Positions 29,290 to 63,435 of a stretch of DNA of 64,000 nucleotides are shown in pieces. The stretch is from Aphrophora alni. Taxonomy: Eukaryota; Arthropoda; Insecta; Hemiptera; Aphrophoridae. The notes beneath the pieces are model-generated. The model was not told the origin of the DNA. It ran no database searches and saw nothing but the letters and a program-made list of their open reading frames with translations. The position numbers were made by a program, and so were the translations under genes. The stretch covers positions 106,427,797-106,491,796 of the forward strand of contig OY740772.1 in assembly GCA_963513935.1 (NCBI GenBank), in the 5' to 3' direction. Each line of letters starts with the position of its first letter. Position 1 is the stretch's first letter.

Positions 29290-32174
29290 TTAATCGTCTT
29301 CGATTGTATCTTGCTCTTGCTTATCATTCATGGTGTCTATATTGTGGCAAGAAACTCCATTGCAGTTTTCGCACATGCCTGAGCAGAACAAACCAGACTT
29401 TCTACACCCGCAATAATTCCCACAAGTAGATTTGCAGGCACATGAAACCAGAAGTAAAAGTTCATTTGGAGCAAAAGGTTTTCCACACCTGCACTTGCAA
29501 GTATACTCTTAGTAAGTGTTGTTGGCATGCTTCAGATGTTGGTGGTAATTTTGCTAAATTGAAATTTGACCGTAAATTTGATTTCTTTGCCATGCTCGCA
29601 AATTTGAAATAACGAGCTTCATTTAAGTTTTTATGTTTGTTCATTCCATATAGTCCAAGTGTAAAGTTTTCTCCACTGCCAAGTAGTTCTTCTTTTAATA
29701 TATTTTCTTCCAAATATGTAGAGGCTTGCTGCTTAGCTTCCAAAGACGATTTCAACATTTCGACAGCTTTTATTTTTCCTATACCATAGAAGGACGATGT
29801 TGTGTCGCAGCCGGTCATTGCGTGCACAAACAAAAGTTCTTTTCTTATTCCATTGTGCTGTTCAATCAACCTGTCAATGTCATAGAAAAGCTTAATGCCA
29901 TCTTTTCCACCTGTTGGTTTGCAAAAATATATATAATTTTTCTCGGGAGCAAGAGCCACTAACAAGGCACACAAATCTGTATCCGTATCCACTACGACCA
30001 CTTTCAAGCCCTCCTTGGCCTTTTCAATGGCAACATTTATTATTAGAACATCGGCATCTTCTTCAGCAGTCAGTGTTGATATTCCACGGTTTGTCATTTT
30101 TGAGGCAATTGCGCGTAACAACTTTGTTTTGTTCTTTTTATTTCCTAAAAGATTTTCCTTAGGTGTCGTACATTCTGTGCTTTCATCAAAGTTCATATCA
30201 CAAGAAGTTTTTTGAAGCTCTTCTTCTTTGTTCTTCGCTTTTTGTAGTTGAATTTTCAGGATAACCGTCAAAAACTACAGTTGCATTATTTCCATAATTA
30301 GAGATGACAAAGTCACAGTAGTTCTTGATGATTCCTCCATATGTAGATTTATTCGGCCAGTTCATGTAATGTAGTAAGAATCCACCATCAACTACAAATA
30401 CTGCATCACGAATATCAACTTCGTCTCTTAAACCAGCTTCAAATACCTTCATTAAGGAAGATTTTGTTCCTTTGCGAAGTGAAACTTCATCGAAGATAGA
30501 TGGTGGTCTAGAAGCAAGCTCATATGACATGTACTCTTTTAGTTTCATCGGACTATCACAAACACATAAAATTCTGTTAAACAGCTGTTGTGGGTTGACT
30601 AGAACTTCGTTAGATCGAACTTTCACCTTCTTCGACTTGGCTTGAGTCTGTACTTTGTCTTTCCTGTGTAAATGTAATTCACCGAAGTTCTTTTTGTTCA
30701 CCACTCATTTTGTTCATTGCTGCAATACCTATTTCATATGCCTGATCACAGTTTACCGACTCATCTGATACATATCCAGATGACAATGATACAAGTTCAC
30801 CCGATACTTTGTTAAATGGATTATGTTGTAGGATTCATGAAGTGAACTTTTGTAAATCACACTGGTCTCTCTTCTTTCTTGAATCCCTAACTTCGACATG
30901 TTGTTCGCTGAATGTAATGGAACTTCCCAGAAAGTCTTCTAAAGCTTCATAAATCTTCAAGAAATAAGGGGTGCCATTTATCCATTTTGTTAGTGTACTT
31001 TCCGTGATGCCTCTCCCGTGGGTCAAACCTCCAACAGATTTCATTGGACGCATGAGACATTGCTCAATGCACATATCCGTCCATGTACCCGACCAAAATT
31101 TTCCACTTCGTCTTACTTTAAACATTCCTTTTTTTGTAAAAAGCTCAAATTCCCTCTCTGTCAGTTTCAATTTGATTTCCAGTATTTCTTGAACATATAA
31201 ATGGACCGATTTTGCATAGGGTAGATGTCCAGCTGCATGAAAATACGGCAGCATTTTGATTGTTGTTGCTAAATGCATAGCCCAGTTCCCTGTACGCTCT
31301 GCATAACTAAATTGCAAAATTAGATCAGTGCATTTTATTAAATTTATCCAGAGTTTAGAAGTTCTGTTTGATGATTCTATGCTCTTCAAGGAGTTGTCTA
31401 TTTTACTGCACAAATCAATTATTTCTGGGTCTGTAAGAGTTTGTTCTATGTTTATTTCTTGTTTTCCAACCTGTGAGTGGTACTTCTCCAAAGCAGAAAC
31501 GCTTTCTTTTAAAACTTCATCATGGTCTTTTAATGCGTTTATTAACGCAGATGCGGTTACCATGAACGCTCTGATACATCTTGCATAAGAATGGCCACTG
31601 AGCATATTTTTCACTGTGTTTTGACCATAAACTGTAGCCCATAAACTTTCTAGTCCACTTTCTTCCATAATTTGTCCAACGGATCCCATAAAAGACATCA
31701 GAAGGTGAAAACCCCCAAGCCTTACAACTATCTTCGATATTTCACTTTGACTTTCTGCAGATGCTACGATCTCGGATGCCTTCAAAAACAGTGGCTGGTC
31801 AAAAGTTATTATGCAAGACTGATTTTGTTTCCTACTCTCTTCTGCAGCAAAACACAAAGCAGTAAAAATTGTAGAATAGTTAGAAGCATCCATATTTATG
31901 AATGGTAGAGCCTTGATGTATGTCGCATCAGAGTCCTCTGTCTTGCTGTTAATTATGTTCATGAAGCCATTCCACCCTGGCTGAACATGGACACCAGACA
32001 TCCAAATGTAATTTAAAGGGAATACAGTAATTGTAGTATCAGTGATACGCATTCCAGCTACAGTAGTAACTCATTGTAGTCTTTAATATTGATTTTGCTC
32101 AATCCCTTACGTTTCGTTGTCTGTGGGTACACTTTTTTCCTTATACTTTCTGGGTAGTAGACTTTAAATATGTA
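29290..32174 (-). pseudogene. Academ-like transposon protein with XPG-type nuclease and Cys cluster, disrupted
   Basis: Reading right to left, the pieces are a fragment reading IFKVYYPESIRKK (about 32174-32063); the main N-terminal block 32052-30835 (405 codons, with LGGFHLLMSFMGSVGQIM and WATVYGQNTVKNMLSG); a linker (NPFNKVSGELVSLSSGYVSD); then the nuclease. The XPG N-like part has VFVVDGGFLLHY and VVFDGYPENSTTKSEEQRRR. The I-like part has VVVVDTDTDLCALLVAL and TGCDTTSSFYGIGKIKAVEM, which parallels the GCD-GIG-KA signature of FEN1. The C-terminus has a SCACKSTCG / CGCRKSGLFC / CENCNGVSCHN cysteine motif. Breaks are an in-frame TGA at 30835-30837 and frame changes near 32060, 30691-30695, 30208-30213 and 29465-29477. 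Two of the frame changes fall in homopolymer runs. Intact relatives would cut and transpose the element. Confidence 0.75.
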
Positions 32175-37310: not shown

Positions 37311-37660
37311 GTACGATGATTTCGCAAATCAATTTGTTTCTTAATTGATTTTCTACGTATAAATGTATATTTCTTCTTTTAGCATCCTACAGGTCGTGAA
37401 GAAGTCACGAATTATGACGTGGAATTGAGTACAATCGGTGCCGTTGTTGGATTGTAGCAGTAACATAGCATATTGTAATGTTAGTACAAAAAGAATATTT
37501 CTCTGAATGGATGTTGAAAATTTGAGATTTTTTACAAATAGTATTGTTTTTTTAAGTTAAAGTTTATAAATTCCATATTGTCTTATGTATGCTTTAAAAT
37601 AAGTTTATTACTAAATTACTTACGTCTTAGCAATCTTGTGTTTAGTATTTATTTATTAAT

Positions 37661-37709
37661 ATTTCATTACAGCTGTTTCGGTATAACATATACCATCATC
37701 AGATGAAAC
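37661..37709 (-). ncRNA. Hammerhead-ribozyme-like motif, minus strand
   Basis: On the minus strand, stem I GTTTCAT pairs with ATGAAAT. The core CTGATGA is followed by stem II GGTATA-TGT-TATACC, then GAAA, a palindromic stem III ACAGCTGT and the cleavage-site-like TA. There is one extra U between the core and stem II. Stem III has no loop, so activity would need a dimer. Confidence 0.75.
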
Positions 37710-37922
37710 AACACACTGATACACATTTCACAAAAATAAACAAACATAAAATGTTTGGTACTGCAGTACAAGTCGAAAATAATATAAAATAAAGTTTAGA
37801 TAGTTTAGATAATATAGCCACATCTTTCTAACGTGGTGGTCAACTGTTCACTCTGCAGTACCAAACATTAAATGTTTATTTATTTTTGTGAAATGTGTAT
37901 CAGTGTGTTGTATAAATGTGTT

Positions 37923-37971
37923 GTTTCATCTGATGATGGTATATCTTATACCGAAACAGCTGTAATGAAAT
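37923..37971 (+). ncRNA. Hammerhead-ribozyme-like motif, plus strand
   Basis: Same architecture as 37661-37709: stem I GTTTCAT / ATGAAAT, core CTGATGA, stem II GGTATA-TCT-TATACC, GAAA, palindrome ACAGCTGT, then A before the stem I 3' strand. All invariant core bases are present. The stem II loop differs by one base from the minus-strand copy. Confidence 0.78.
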
Positions 37972-38135
37972 ATTAATGAATAAATACTGAACACAAGATT
38001 GCTATGACGTAAGTAATTTAATAATAAACTTAAAGTTTATTGTAAAATAAACAAATCAATTTATTTTAAAAATCAATATTAATTTTATTCACACCCAATT
38101 TCATTTCCTTTTCAACGTCATAACATCTAGATTTA

Positions 38136-52300: not shown

Positions 52301-52904
52301 ACATAATTTAAACGTGGTATAAAAATATAAATTTTAACAAGATTCTCTTCATTACTTGACAAACAAGGACTCATGCGTTTATGAACAAGGTAACAACATA
52401 GCAGAGTACAGCCTAGGTCAAGTAATATGCGAGAAGAAACAGAATCAGGGTAAGTATAACAATAACGAGATATATAAATTAAACTGTAGTGATTGTATAC
52501 AACAGAACAAACAAAAAGAACATTTAAAATTAGATTTAAAGAACATCTAATGAAAAGAAACCACAACATAAACAGATCCTCATTTGTTGAACAGCTGATC
52601 GATAACAATCACACCTAAAAATCATTGAAGATTACATGGAAATTCTTCATAAAACACGTAAAGAAATAATTATGAATGTGAAGAATATGAAATTTACAAA
52701 CAAAACCAGAATAAGTTAAACGAAATATTAAATGACAAATTTAATTCAAACAGTTTAAATGACAAGGTCACCCGTTGCTAAACATCGATTAATATTTTGT
52801 TATATATAAATATTGTCAATTTATTTGAAGCTTTCATTCATTAGTCTAATTGTAAACTTCGACTGGCATCCTTAGTGCTCGTTTATGCCCCAACTATATG
52901 ATGG

Positions 52905-55085: not shown

Positions 55086-55130
55086 GTATCAGACGCGTTT
55101 CAACGACAAGGTCGTCCTCTTCAGTAATAC
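55086..55130 (-). ncRNA. Hammerhead-ribozyme-like motif, subfamily 3, best-preserved copy
   Basis: Minus strand: stem I GTATTA / TGATAC (6 bp), core CTGAAGA, one extra G, stem II GACGAC-CTT-GTCGTT, GAAA, palindrome ACGCGT, C at the cleavage position. All invariant core bases are present. Confidence 0.7.
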
Positions 55131-56823: not shown

Positions 56824-56834
56824 TTAAAGAATTT

Positions 56835-57176
56835 CATAAATTCCATATTGCCTTATGAATGCTTTAAAATAAGTTTATTACTAAATTACTTACGTCTTAG
56901 CAATCTTGTGTTTAGAATGAACAGTTGACCACCACGTTAGAAAGATGTGGCTATATTATCTAAACTATCTAAACTCTATTTTATATTATTTTCGACTTGT
57001 ACTGCAGTACCAAACATTTTATGTTTATTTATTTTTGTGAAATGTATCAGTGTGTTGTGTAAACGTGTTGTTCCATCTGATGATGGTATATGTTATACCG
57101 AAACAGCTGTAATGAAATATTAATTAATAAATACTAAAAACAAGATTGATAAGACGTAAGTAATTTAGTAATAAAC
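56835..57176. mobile_element. Hammerhead-bearing foldback element, second copy of the 37.6-kb family, 11-bp flanking repeats
   Basis: Shares its outer ends (AAATTCCATATTG..TTATG and AATAAAC) with 37568-38029. It is flanked by direct repeats TTAAAGAATTT at 56824-56834 and 57177-57187. Only one hammerhead is present. The central block (AACAGTTGACCACCACGTTA onward) is inverted relative to the first copy. Confidence 0.75.
57070..57118 (+). ncRNA. Hammerhead-ribozyme-like motif
   Basis: Stem I GTTCCAT / ATGAAAT with one mismatch, core CTGATGA, stem II GGTATA-TGT-TATACC, GAAA, ACAGCTGT, then A. Confidence 0.75.
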
Positions 57177-57187
57177 TTAAAGAATTT

Positions 57188-60219: not shown

Positions 60220-60781
60220 ACCTAACCTAACCTAACCTAACCTAACCTAACCTAACCTAACCTAACCTAACCTAACCTAACCTAACCTAACCTAACCTAA
60301 CCTAACCTAACCTAACCTAACCTAACTTAACCTAACCTAACCTAACCTAACCTAACCTAACCTAACCTAACCTAACCTAACCTTACCTAACCTAACCTAA
60401 CCTAACCTAACCTAACCTAACCTAACCTAACCTAACCTAACCTAACCTAGTCAAAAATGTAATGTTGAAACCTTACCTTTCAATGTAACCTCTCAACCTA
60501 ACCTAACCTAACCTAACCTAACCTAACCTAACCTAACCTAACCTAACCTAACCTAACCTAACCTAACCTAACCTAACCTAACCTAACCTAACCTAACCTA
60601 ACCTAGTCAAAAATGTAATGTTGAAACCTTACCTCTCAATGTAACCTCTCAACCTAACCTAACCTAACCTAACCTAACCTAACCTAACCTAGTCAAAAAT
60701 GTAATGTTGAAACCTTACCTCTCAATGTAACCTCTCAACCTAACCTAACCTAACCTAACCTAACCTAACCTAACCTAACCT
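60220..60781 (+). repeat. (CCTAA)n arrays alternating with a 46-47 bp spacer
   Basis: Arrays at 60220-60449, 60496-60605, 60652-60691 and 60738-60781 are separated by three nearly identical spacers (GTCAAAAATGTAATGTTGAA, then ACCTTACC and CAATGTAACCTCTCAA). The spacer equals the sequence at about 60168-60219, just before the first array, so the whole block grew by tandem duplication. Confidence 0.95.
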
Positions 60782-61100
60782 ATAGCTACGAGATCTAGCA
60801 GGGAAGTCACTGGACACGAGCGTAGTGAGTGGAGTCTTTTTCACATATGTTCAGCTAAGATGGCCGTGTTATTGACACGAGCGAAGCGAGTGAATATATT
60901 TTAATTAGAAACATATTCAAGGCCCTCTAAGGTCTAGCCGATGGAAATGAGTGGTTCGGCATAATTACGAGGTTCAGGAAACTTTTAAACAAGCTTATTT
61001 TACTTATTAAGACCCTATGCTCTACCAATACAATTTAAAATATTCTACCAAAATTTAAAAACATCTTTTAGACATTAAATTTAGAGAATCAGCTTGTATG
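60782..61100 (+). repeat. Interspersed repeat family A, right part
   Basis: GACACGAGCGTAGTGAGTGG (60815), GACACGAGCGAAGCGAGTG (60876), AAGGCCCTCTAAGGTCTAGC and ATTAAATTTAGAGAATCAGC. Confidence 0.8.
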
Positions 61101-61264
61101 ATGGATCTGGGTAAGTACCATGGTTAGCGTCCATCAACAATTGTATTATACCCGATTGTTGATTTTTAAATGAGGATCTTAAAATATAAATAATAAAAAG
61201 ATATACAAGATATAATAGGTATGTAGTTAAAAAAAAAAAAAAAAACTTGCCTAATGAAATAGTT

Positions 61265-61549
61265 ACAATCTTGTTGAGCACTGTGGTGAAATTCACAATA
61301 ATGATTCGAATTTGCCCCTAACCACAATCACTAGAAACTTTAAAATAAAACACAGACTTTTATTTCATTAGTAGATATGTAAGTTTATATTTAGTTTATA
61401 AGCAAGACCCTCCGACGATGATAACCATGTTATCGAAATGTACATCAAGGCATTTAGTGGAAATAATTAATAAAGAACAATTAATCAGCCAACTGTGTTT
61501 TATTTTAAAGTTTCTAGTGATTGTGGTTAGGGGCAAATTCGAATCATTA
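61265..61549. mobile_element. Foldback element, family 2, copy 1, 13-bp flanking repeats
   Basis: Starts ACAATCTTGTTGAGCACTG and ends CGAATCATTA. Inverted arms carry TTTGCCCCTAACCACAATCA / TGATTGTGGTTAGGGGCAAA. The direct repeat TAATGAAATAGTT flanks it at 61252-61264 and 61550-61562. The loop region holds a hammerhead-like motif. No coding sequence. Confidence 0.8.
61408..61450 (+). ncRNA. Hammerhead-like motif, variant core
   Basis: Core CCGACGA (the usual U at position 4 is C), stem II GATAAC-CAT-GTTATC, GAAA, palindrome ATGTACAT, C at the cleavage position, weak stem I CCCT / AAGG. Confidence 0.55.
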
Positions 61550-61649
61550 TAATGAAATAGTTTCAACATCTCTAACAATATTTCTAAATAAGATAATCCA
61601 AGTGATTTATCTTAAGAAATTTTTAAAAAATGCTAACAATTGTTTGTCT

Positions 61650-62314: not shown

Positions 62315-62463
62315 TAACCTAACCTAACCTAACCTAACCTAACCTAACCTAACCTAACCTAACCCAACCTAACCTAACTTAACCTAACTTAACCTAACCT
62401 AACCTAACCTAACCTAACCTAACCTAACCTAACCTAACCTAACCTAACCTAACCTAACCTAAC
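62315..62463 (+). repeat. (CCTAA)n telomere-type array
   Basis: About 149 bp with rare CCCAA and CTTAA variants. Directly adjoins a family B copy. Confidence 0.95.
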
Positions 62464-62489
62464 CATCTCGTCTCTTCACCAAAGAACCA

Positions 62490-62949: not shown

Positions 62950-63044
62950 GTCATCCTTTTCCGAGCAATTTTTGTTTTTTTTCCTATTCTAATGCTATAG
63001 TAGTCAAGAGGTAAGGGGTATTTATTTCATGTTCTTTTGTTCGG
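62950..63044 (+). repeat. SINE-like repeat family B, left part, split by a foldback element
   Basis: TCTAATGCTATAGTAGTCAA and GTATTTATTTCATGTTC lead up to the insertion point. The family resumes at 63358. Confidence 0.7.
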
Positions 63045-63357
63045 ATACAATCTTGTTGAGCACTGTGGTGAAATTCACAATAATAATTTGAATTTGCCCC
63101 TAACCACAATCACTGGAACTTAATAAAACACAATTATCTGATTGATTGTTCTTTATTAATTATATCCACTTAATGCCCTGATGTACATTTCGATAACAAG
63201 ATTTAGTTTATAAGCAAGACCCTCCGATGATGATAACCATGTTATCGAAATGTACATCAGGGCATTAAGTGGATATAATTAATAAAGAACAATCAATCAG
63301 ATAATTGTGTTTTATTAAGTTCCAGTGATTGTGGTTAGGGGCAAATTCAAATTATTA
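63045..63357. mobile_element. Foldback element, family 2, copy 2, 13-bp flanking repeats, inserted in family B
   Basis: Arms of about 120 bp are near-perfect inverted repeats, with a loop carrying a hammerhead-like motif. The direct repeat TTCTTTTGTTCGG is present at 63032-63044 and 63358-63370. It is part of the family B sequence interrupted here, which confirms it as a target duplication. The end sequences match 61265-61549. Confidence 0.85.
63220..63262 (+). ncRNA. Hammerhead-like motif, variant core
   Basis: Stem I CCCT / AGGG, core CCGATGA, stem II GATAAC-CAT-GTTATC, GAAA, palindrome ATGTACAT, then C. The only core departure is C for U at position 4. Confidence 0.6.
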
Positions 63358-63435
63358 TTCTTTTGTTCGGTTTTGTTTCTTTTTTATAAAGCAACGATGA
63401 CGGAAAGTTTTTTGCTTCTTAGTAACAAGAAGAAA
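63358..63435 (+). repeat. SINE-like repeat family B, right part
   Basis: TTTTTTATAAAGCAACGATG and ACGGAAAGTTTTTTGCTTC complete the copy split by the foldback element. Confidence 0.7.

Follow-up and report, generated by a model that had tools for sequence, protein, structure and literature searches.

A near-perfect foldback of 313 bp at positions 63045-63357 of a 64,000-nucleotide stretch of Aphrophora alni DNA (the window) raises two questions: what kind of element does it represent, and how did it acquire its inverted form? A reading of the window from its letters alone (the sequence-only reading) had described it as a mobile foldback unit with a 13-bp flanking repeat, lodged in a dispersed repeat, carrying a hammerhead-type motif in its loop and accompanied by a relative at 61265-61549 with a different duplication. 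All of these features were confirmed. The arms (63079-63203 and 63235-63359) are 125 nt long and 98% complementary, with a spacer of 31 nt, and the 13-bp target-site duplication TTCTTTTGTTCGG is present on the left (63032-63044) and on the right (63358-63370). In a comparison with shuffles, the fold of the unit's minus strand has a z value of -30. When the flanks are joined, one other member of the interrupted dispersed repeat (39884-39762, 70%) crosses the junction. The relative, named copy A to distinguish it from copy B at 63045-63357, lies between two copies of the 13-bp sequence TAATGAAATAGTT (61252-61264 and 61550-61562), and an exact 27-mer in the loop is common to both copies.

Because the first 34 nt of copy B (63045-63078) lie outside the inverted repeat, the copy is asymmetric and consists of a tail, an inverted pLTR and a pLTR. 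The tail of 34 nt (minus strand) is restricted to the left end of copy B. It is followed by a tail arm on the minus strand (63079-63198), which is truncated at reference position P72, and by a no-tail arm on the plus strand (63199-63357, P31-P189), which faces the tail arm head to head. In copy A, tail and tail arm (61265-61354, minus strand) are truncated at P138, and the no-tail arm (61358-61549, plus strand) contains a hammerhead-type motif with the core CCGACGA at 61412. Inverted pLTRs, a tail and short target duplications have been published for Penelope-like elements (PLEs; PMC3846280, PMC8969392, PMC11167929). The element had been considered possibly undescribed; this holds for the family, but not for its anatomy. 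The family is new, its kind is known, and its copies are unusually informative. The account of copy B as a short, 5'-truncated PLE insertion with head-to-head pLTRs and one tail is, taken as a whole, very likely correct.

Two interstitial (TAACC)n arrays are located near copies A and B (60502-60800 and 62316-62466); many insects have TTAGG as their telomere repeat. First among the sub-threshold Rfam matches is mir-6095 at 63167-63271 on both strands, with 37.3 and 35.7 bits at a gathering threshold of 100. A literature search on this name was empty, and the identity was rejected. Inverted pLTRs such as 63167-63271 might pass mistakenly for miRNA precursors.

The assembly (1.70 Gb, 388 contigs) was searched with three patterns, for each of which the control gave 0 matches. 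A 39-nt tail pattern matched 2397 times at up to 3 mismatches, a 31-nt pLTR-end pattern 4226 times and a 35-nt end-plus-tail pattern 2130 times, the latter two at up to 2 mismatches. The ratio of end-plus-tail to pLTR-end matches, 0.504, is approximate because the patterns differ in length. Two samples were examined. The first comprises 41 copies, namely the two of the window and 39 further distinct ones (L009-L047) obtained from 40 scored candidates out of 1154, ranked by similarity to the window copy. The second comprises 45 copies with an exact tail from one contig (L079-L108, L113-L127), taken in map order because ranking by similarity would bias the sample. Of the 65 copies with a measurable second arm (86 loci examined), 60 have a target duplication that is 9 bp or longer and contains no more than one mismatch. 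The ranked sample contributed 36 of 38 (3 of its 41 loci having no measurable second arm) and the map-ordered sample 24 of 27 (18 of its 45 loci having none); swapped-flank controls yielded 16/380 and 13/270, respectively. The mobility inferred from the two window copies is therefore real, and the proposed search for copies with duplications of 10-15 bp yielded many: the length ranges from 9 to 19 bp and is 11-15 bp in 53 of the 60.

The tip of a DNA transposon of the foldback or MITE type would likewise have long inverted arms and be flanked by a target duplication. This origin has hardly any probability, since the tail is one-sided, the duplication varies in length (9-19 bp), the inner junctions are variable and relatives of the element possess reverse transcriptase (RT) and GIY-YIG domains.

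The points where each of the two arms breaks off, termed d and v, were determined for the copies. In the map-ordered sample, the second arm was sought within 1 kb for the first 30 copies and within a 621-bp stretch for the last 15. It was in reach in 33 of the 45 copies and absent from this reach in 12. The total length of the 33 copies is 97-607 bp. Breakpoints of the tail arm are scattered in this sample from P174 to P-303, the latter being the end of the ruler, and we claim no clustering at the hammerhead cut site. Both d and v scatter widely and are not anticorrelated (r = 0.32; 16 copies with a second arm ending at P184-192). Among the 65 junctions of both samples, 20 have an overlap, 3 are flush and 42 contain fillers. 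The words that the 21 fillers of at least 10 nt have in common with their surroundings are longer than those of shuffled fillers (mean 9.1 versus 6.4, a weak effect), and their mean tail fraction is 0.26. Since junctions and lengths vary among the 33 map-ordered copies, each foldback was formed anew at insertion. The notion of a stable foldback that replicates as such was thereby contradicted, as arm breakpoints, fillers and length differ between copies. A unit of fixed length was likewise rejected: lengths in the ranked sample cluster at 318 ± 10 bp because its copies were ranked by similarity to the window copy, but the map-ordered sample spans 97-607 bp.

Upstream of the pLTR, the longer copies contain further sequence. 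In a 3-kb piece (L109), the sequence upstream of a copy of the common 3' region is a broken endonuclease C-terminus, consisting of two pieces that are 71-74% identical to the GIY-YIG locus L050; a 76-aa piece of L109 has no Pfam score. The endonuclease piece of L109 gave 150 scored genome matches among 1848 candidates. Apart from L109, 12 places were identified by eye with such a match 107-128 bp upstream of a match to the 3' region, and at C1:34.047 and C1:79.552 Mb it lies on the same strand as a pLTR end, at a distance of 555 and 827 bp. The pLTR family probably has coding members, its 3' region sitting behind broken PLE endonuclease sequence. The link to PLEs suggested by the sequence-only reading is thus borne out by broken GIY-YIG sequence, which at the same time speaks against its notion of a protein-less family. 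Judged from the sequence, copy B is almost certainly an insertion of a GIY-YIG-encoding PLE. RVT_1 and GIY-YIG domains occur together in other PLEs of this genome (L075, L076), and a BLAST comparison of the window-family pLTR with the GIY-YIG loci L049-L078 (1.5-kb flanks, E 1e-3) gave no match.

In a sister subfamily, which is 75% identical in the endonuclease piece, open frames reach 817 aa. Among 23 of its matches picked by eye from the 150, all 8 pairs of opposite-strand copies within 12 kb are head-to-head. One array of this subfamily (C1:20.168-20.186 Mb, about 18 kb) has the strand order ---+++, with three copies pointing outward to the left and three to the right. Inspection by eye revealed a tail of about 30 nt at the left end only, which has TCACCACAGTGCTC in common with the tail of the window family, and a 12-bp target duplication, TACATTAAGTAT. 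The junction of the array lies between coding stretches. The array contains an RT-type frame (L111; RVT_1 4.5e-5, below the cut-off), and RT sequence was seen in the sister subfamily, at this sub-threshold level, and in other families only.

To observe pairs of ends irrespective of the tail, the first 100 listed exact pLTR ends, all on contig C1, were used. Neighbouring exact ends within 1.5 kb form 19 pairs, 17 of which are head-to-head. This orientation bears on a further explanation, in which the foldbacks constitute a stable non-autonomous, retrozyme-like family that replicates via hammerhead-processed circular RNA. Their many copies, near-fixed outer ends and target duplications would suit such a family, as would the hammerhead region (P56-90, 0.020), which is among the best-conserved parts of the pLTR. 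The copies also resemble metazoan retrozymes (PMC7229834, PMC7761336) in having a hammerhead-type motif of type I with a weak stem III and in being short protein-less units. However, these sources describe retrozymes as predominantly tandem in arrangement, with loop contacts and circular RNA, whereas the copies studied here are the head-to-head pLTRs of a probably coding element. Instead of forming tandem units with hammerheads, the close pairs are head-to-head in 17 of 19 cases and the copies vary in length. Neither junction nor size is fixed, and the sequence of longer copies and of relatives continues into PLE endonuclease sequence. The retrozyme-like interpretation of the sequence-only reading is consequently very improbable.

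Three features known from PLEs were observed: a tail of 30-40 bp on one end, pLTRs inverted head-to-head, and a short target-site duplication of variable length (9-19 bp). The tail is distributed asymmetrically. In the 33 map-ordered copies, the end of the second arm falls at P190-199 in 28 cases and earlier in 5, and none of the 33 carries the full tail on this arm. This inner end is not base-sharp: in 9 of these 28 arms the alignment continues for 7-10 nt into the start of the tail (P196-199). In the sample chosen without regard to the tail, the 17 head-to-head pairs have one exact tail in 13 cases, none in 4 and two in 0. Two counts speak against the account of paired pLTRs with one tail: only 37 of the 100 exact ends carry an exact tail, and 18 of the 45 map-ordered copies have no measurable second arm. 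For independent ends with p = 0.5, the absence of doubles among 13 has a probability of 0.005. A one-tail rule for PLE insertions is possibly new; the titles and abstract beginnings of a partial literature set state neither such a rule nor a genome-wide survey of junctions. Unlike the usual head-to-head pairs, three pLTR ends at C1:75663273, 75663972 and 75664671 are arranged in direct tandem with a period of 699 bp.

The two arms of a copy mostly agree at subfamily-diagnostic sites, which suggests a common template source. The arms within 54 copies show 25 shared-state differences; when arms were re-paired between copies, the mean of the permutations was 213 and the minimum 168. An origin of the arms from random, different source copies is ruled out by these numbers. 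Private differences amount to 140, compared to 156 in the permutations, and look like later decay. One copy, L107, has differences at 4 of the shared sites and is perhaps an exception. A cruder measure of divergence gave means of 0.042 within a copy, 0.072 between copies and 0.011 to the nearest arm, and in 39 of 55 copies the two arms differed more from each other than from the closest arm elsewhere; this test is ambiguous because each gap base was counted as a difference. The origin of both arms from one template source is, like the one-tail rule, possibly new.

Single-source arms would also follow from self-copying. A first-strand cDNA or an antisense transcript might fold back on itself and be copied, which would create a head-to-head foldback from a single template; for rotifer Penelope, self-priming on an antisense template has been offered as a view (PMC3846280). 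Besides the template states common to the arms of a copy, near-symmetric junctions with fillers of 19-34 nt (L012, L028, L081, L090, L096, L097, L108/L113) agree with this mechanism, and the hammerhead contributes a small hairpin of its own, stem II. The values of d and v are within 3 nt of each other in 8 of the 65 copies (3.4 expected, P 0.012). This count includes L108 and L113, which are one segmental duplicate with a common duplication and junction. Such near-equal values hint at a common RNA 5' end or at snap-back in some copies. On the other hand, copying back predicts a second arm with tail and flank, but this arm stops at P190-199 in 28 of 33 copies and never has the full tail. Moreover, the no-tail arm often extends further 5' than the tail arm (L080, L013 and L016, with d 105-109 and v 0-7), and the tail arm can therefore not have been its template. 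We regard snap-back as a rather unlikely origin of the foldbacks.

The reading that we prefer is reverse transcription primed from both nicks, which fits the one-tail rule and the single-source arms. A PLE protein would nick both target strands, and each target 3' end would prime reverse transcription of the element RNA. One cDNA would start at the end of the tail (P225) and the other near an inner site (P189). Both cDNAs, which are antisense, would be extended to unequal lengths and then joined at their 3' ends by microhomology or by end-joining with fillers, leaving a foldback inside the target duplication. Long reverse transcription along tandem RNA could produce multi-kb head-to-head arrays by the same process. 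The hammerhead-type motif is located in the pLTR, as in other PLEs, and might serve in the processing of multimeric RNA or as a structural signal. The step of bidirectional priming is somewhat favoured by us. The general proposal, that PLE integration is bidirectional target-primed reverse transcription with a staggered nick, one RNA source and an outer and an inner start, we hold to be evenly balanced between right and wrong; a single step would then account for the duplicated target site, for the one-tail rule, for pLTRs in head-to-head order and for palindromic arrays of about 0.1-18 kb.

Among the closest known systems is Poseidon of Anolis carolinensis (PAc), described in PMC11167929. In vitro, PAc cleaves and extends both strands and uses two adjacent start sites; its tail is the stretch between these two sites. 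The A. alni copies are alike in the proposed nature of the tail, in the proposed extension of both target strands, in their AT-rich targets, in the location of the hammerhead-type motif at the start of the pLTR-ORF and in a start codon that opens stem II. They differ in three respects. The PAc hammerhead cleaves in the presence of the protein, whereas 77 of 82 arms here have C at position 4 of the core; the ATG frame ends after 13 codons in copy B; and PAc shows no apparent difference between top and bottom strand in the choice of start site, whereas none of the insertions examined here has two tails. This asymmetry counts against the account of two-nick priming. The later steps of PLE integration are, in the words of that source, "yet to be validated experimentally". 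With respect to the Penelope elements of Adineta vaga (Pen2a and others, PMC3846280), the differences are that many copies here are pLTR pieces alone, that 53 of 60 duplications measure 11-15 bp, and that a hammerhead-type motif is present; the word "hammerhead" is absent from that paper. Short insertions that preserve the two start points together with the junction amount to a natural archive of the integration reaction, and they are numerous in this genome. The one-tail rule, the single-source arms and the variable, end-joined junctions constrain any model of PLE integration.

Minimal hammerheads are known in PLEs (PMC7761336, PMC7229834). The minimal hammerhead-type motif of copy B (63220-63262, plus strand, stems assigned by eye) consists of stem I CCCT/AGGG (63220-63223 and 63259-63262), the core CCGATGA with U4 changed to C (63224-63230, found by the descriptor), stem II (63232-63246), GAAA (63247-63250) and a palindromic stem III, AUGUACAU (63250-63257), with the predicted cut at 63258/63259. 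The descriptor, which allows at most one core change, finds it at 63224 and has zero hits on both strands of ten Markov-resampled windows; Rfam at the gathering threshold gave no match in the 64-kb window. Motifs that pass the descriptor are present in 48 of 84 loci. The variability of the hammerhead region (P56-90) is 0.020, compared to 0.061 upstream and 0.047 downstream. It ranks fifth of 155 windows, the lowest being at P59; the conservation of the tail is not comparable, because the tail was used for the selection of copies. The change of U4 to C weakens hammerhead cleavage. Self-cleavage of the copy B motif is uncertain. The sister subfamily has CTGAAGA/GTAA, that is, GTAA in place of GAAA. 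Given these two deviations, catalysis may have been lost or may be protein-assisted while the stems were kept. In a predicted dimer of the sister motif, stems I and III are intermolecular, the core is open and stem II is in register, which resembles a double hammerhead. In that predicted for family I, stems I and III are intermolecular as well, and stem II is shifted and pairs with the core. No double-hammerhead dimer was predicted for the other two hammerhead families. The letters of stem III differ among the four families, and the stem is palindromic in each.

A second family in the window is, by its anatomy, a candidate PLE. An inverted pair at 37568-38029 is flanked by the 11-bp duplication TTAAAGTTTAT (37557-37567 and 38030-38040) and contains hammerhead motifs with a canonical core at 37930 (plus strand) and 37702 (minus strand). 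A second copy at 56835-57176 lies between the direct repeats TTAAAGAATTT (56824-56834 and 57177-57187) and has a motif with the core CTGAnGA/GAAA at 57077 (plus strand). Rfam at the gathering threshold misses the motifs in both stretches (37557-38040 and 56824-57187). CTGAnGA/GAAA motifs at 37930, 57077, 37702 and near 55124 have a control count of 0 in ten resampled windows. A short GIY-YIG-like fragment, QTKRTFKIRFKEHL, with a weak match is found at 52496-52606 (plus strand). At 29462-32070 (minus strand), three consecutive open frames, one with a weak DUF6589 match below the cut-off, are a broken gene or element. The motif near 55124 (minus strand; CTGAAGA...GAAA, stem III CGCG) represents a third hammerhead family, and it also occurs in the GIY-YIG locus L069.
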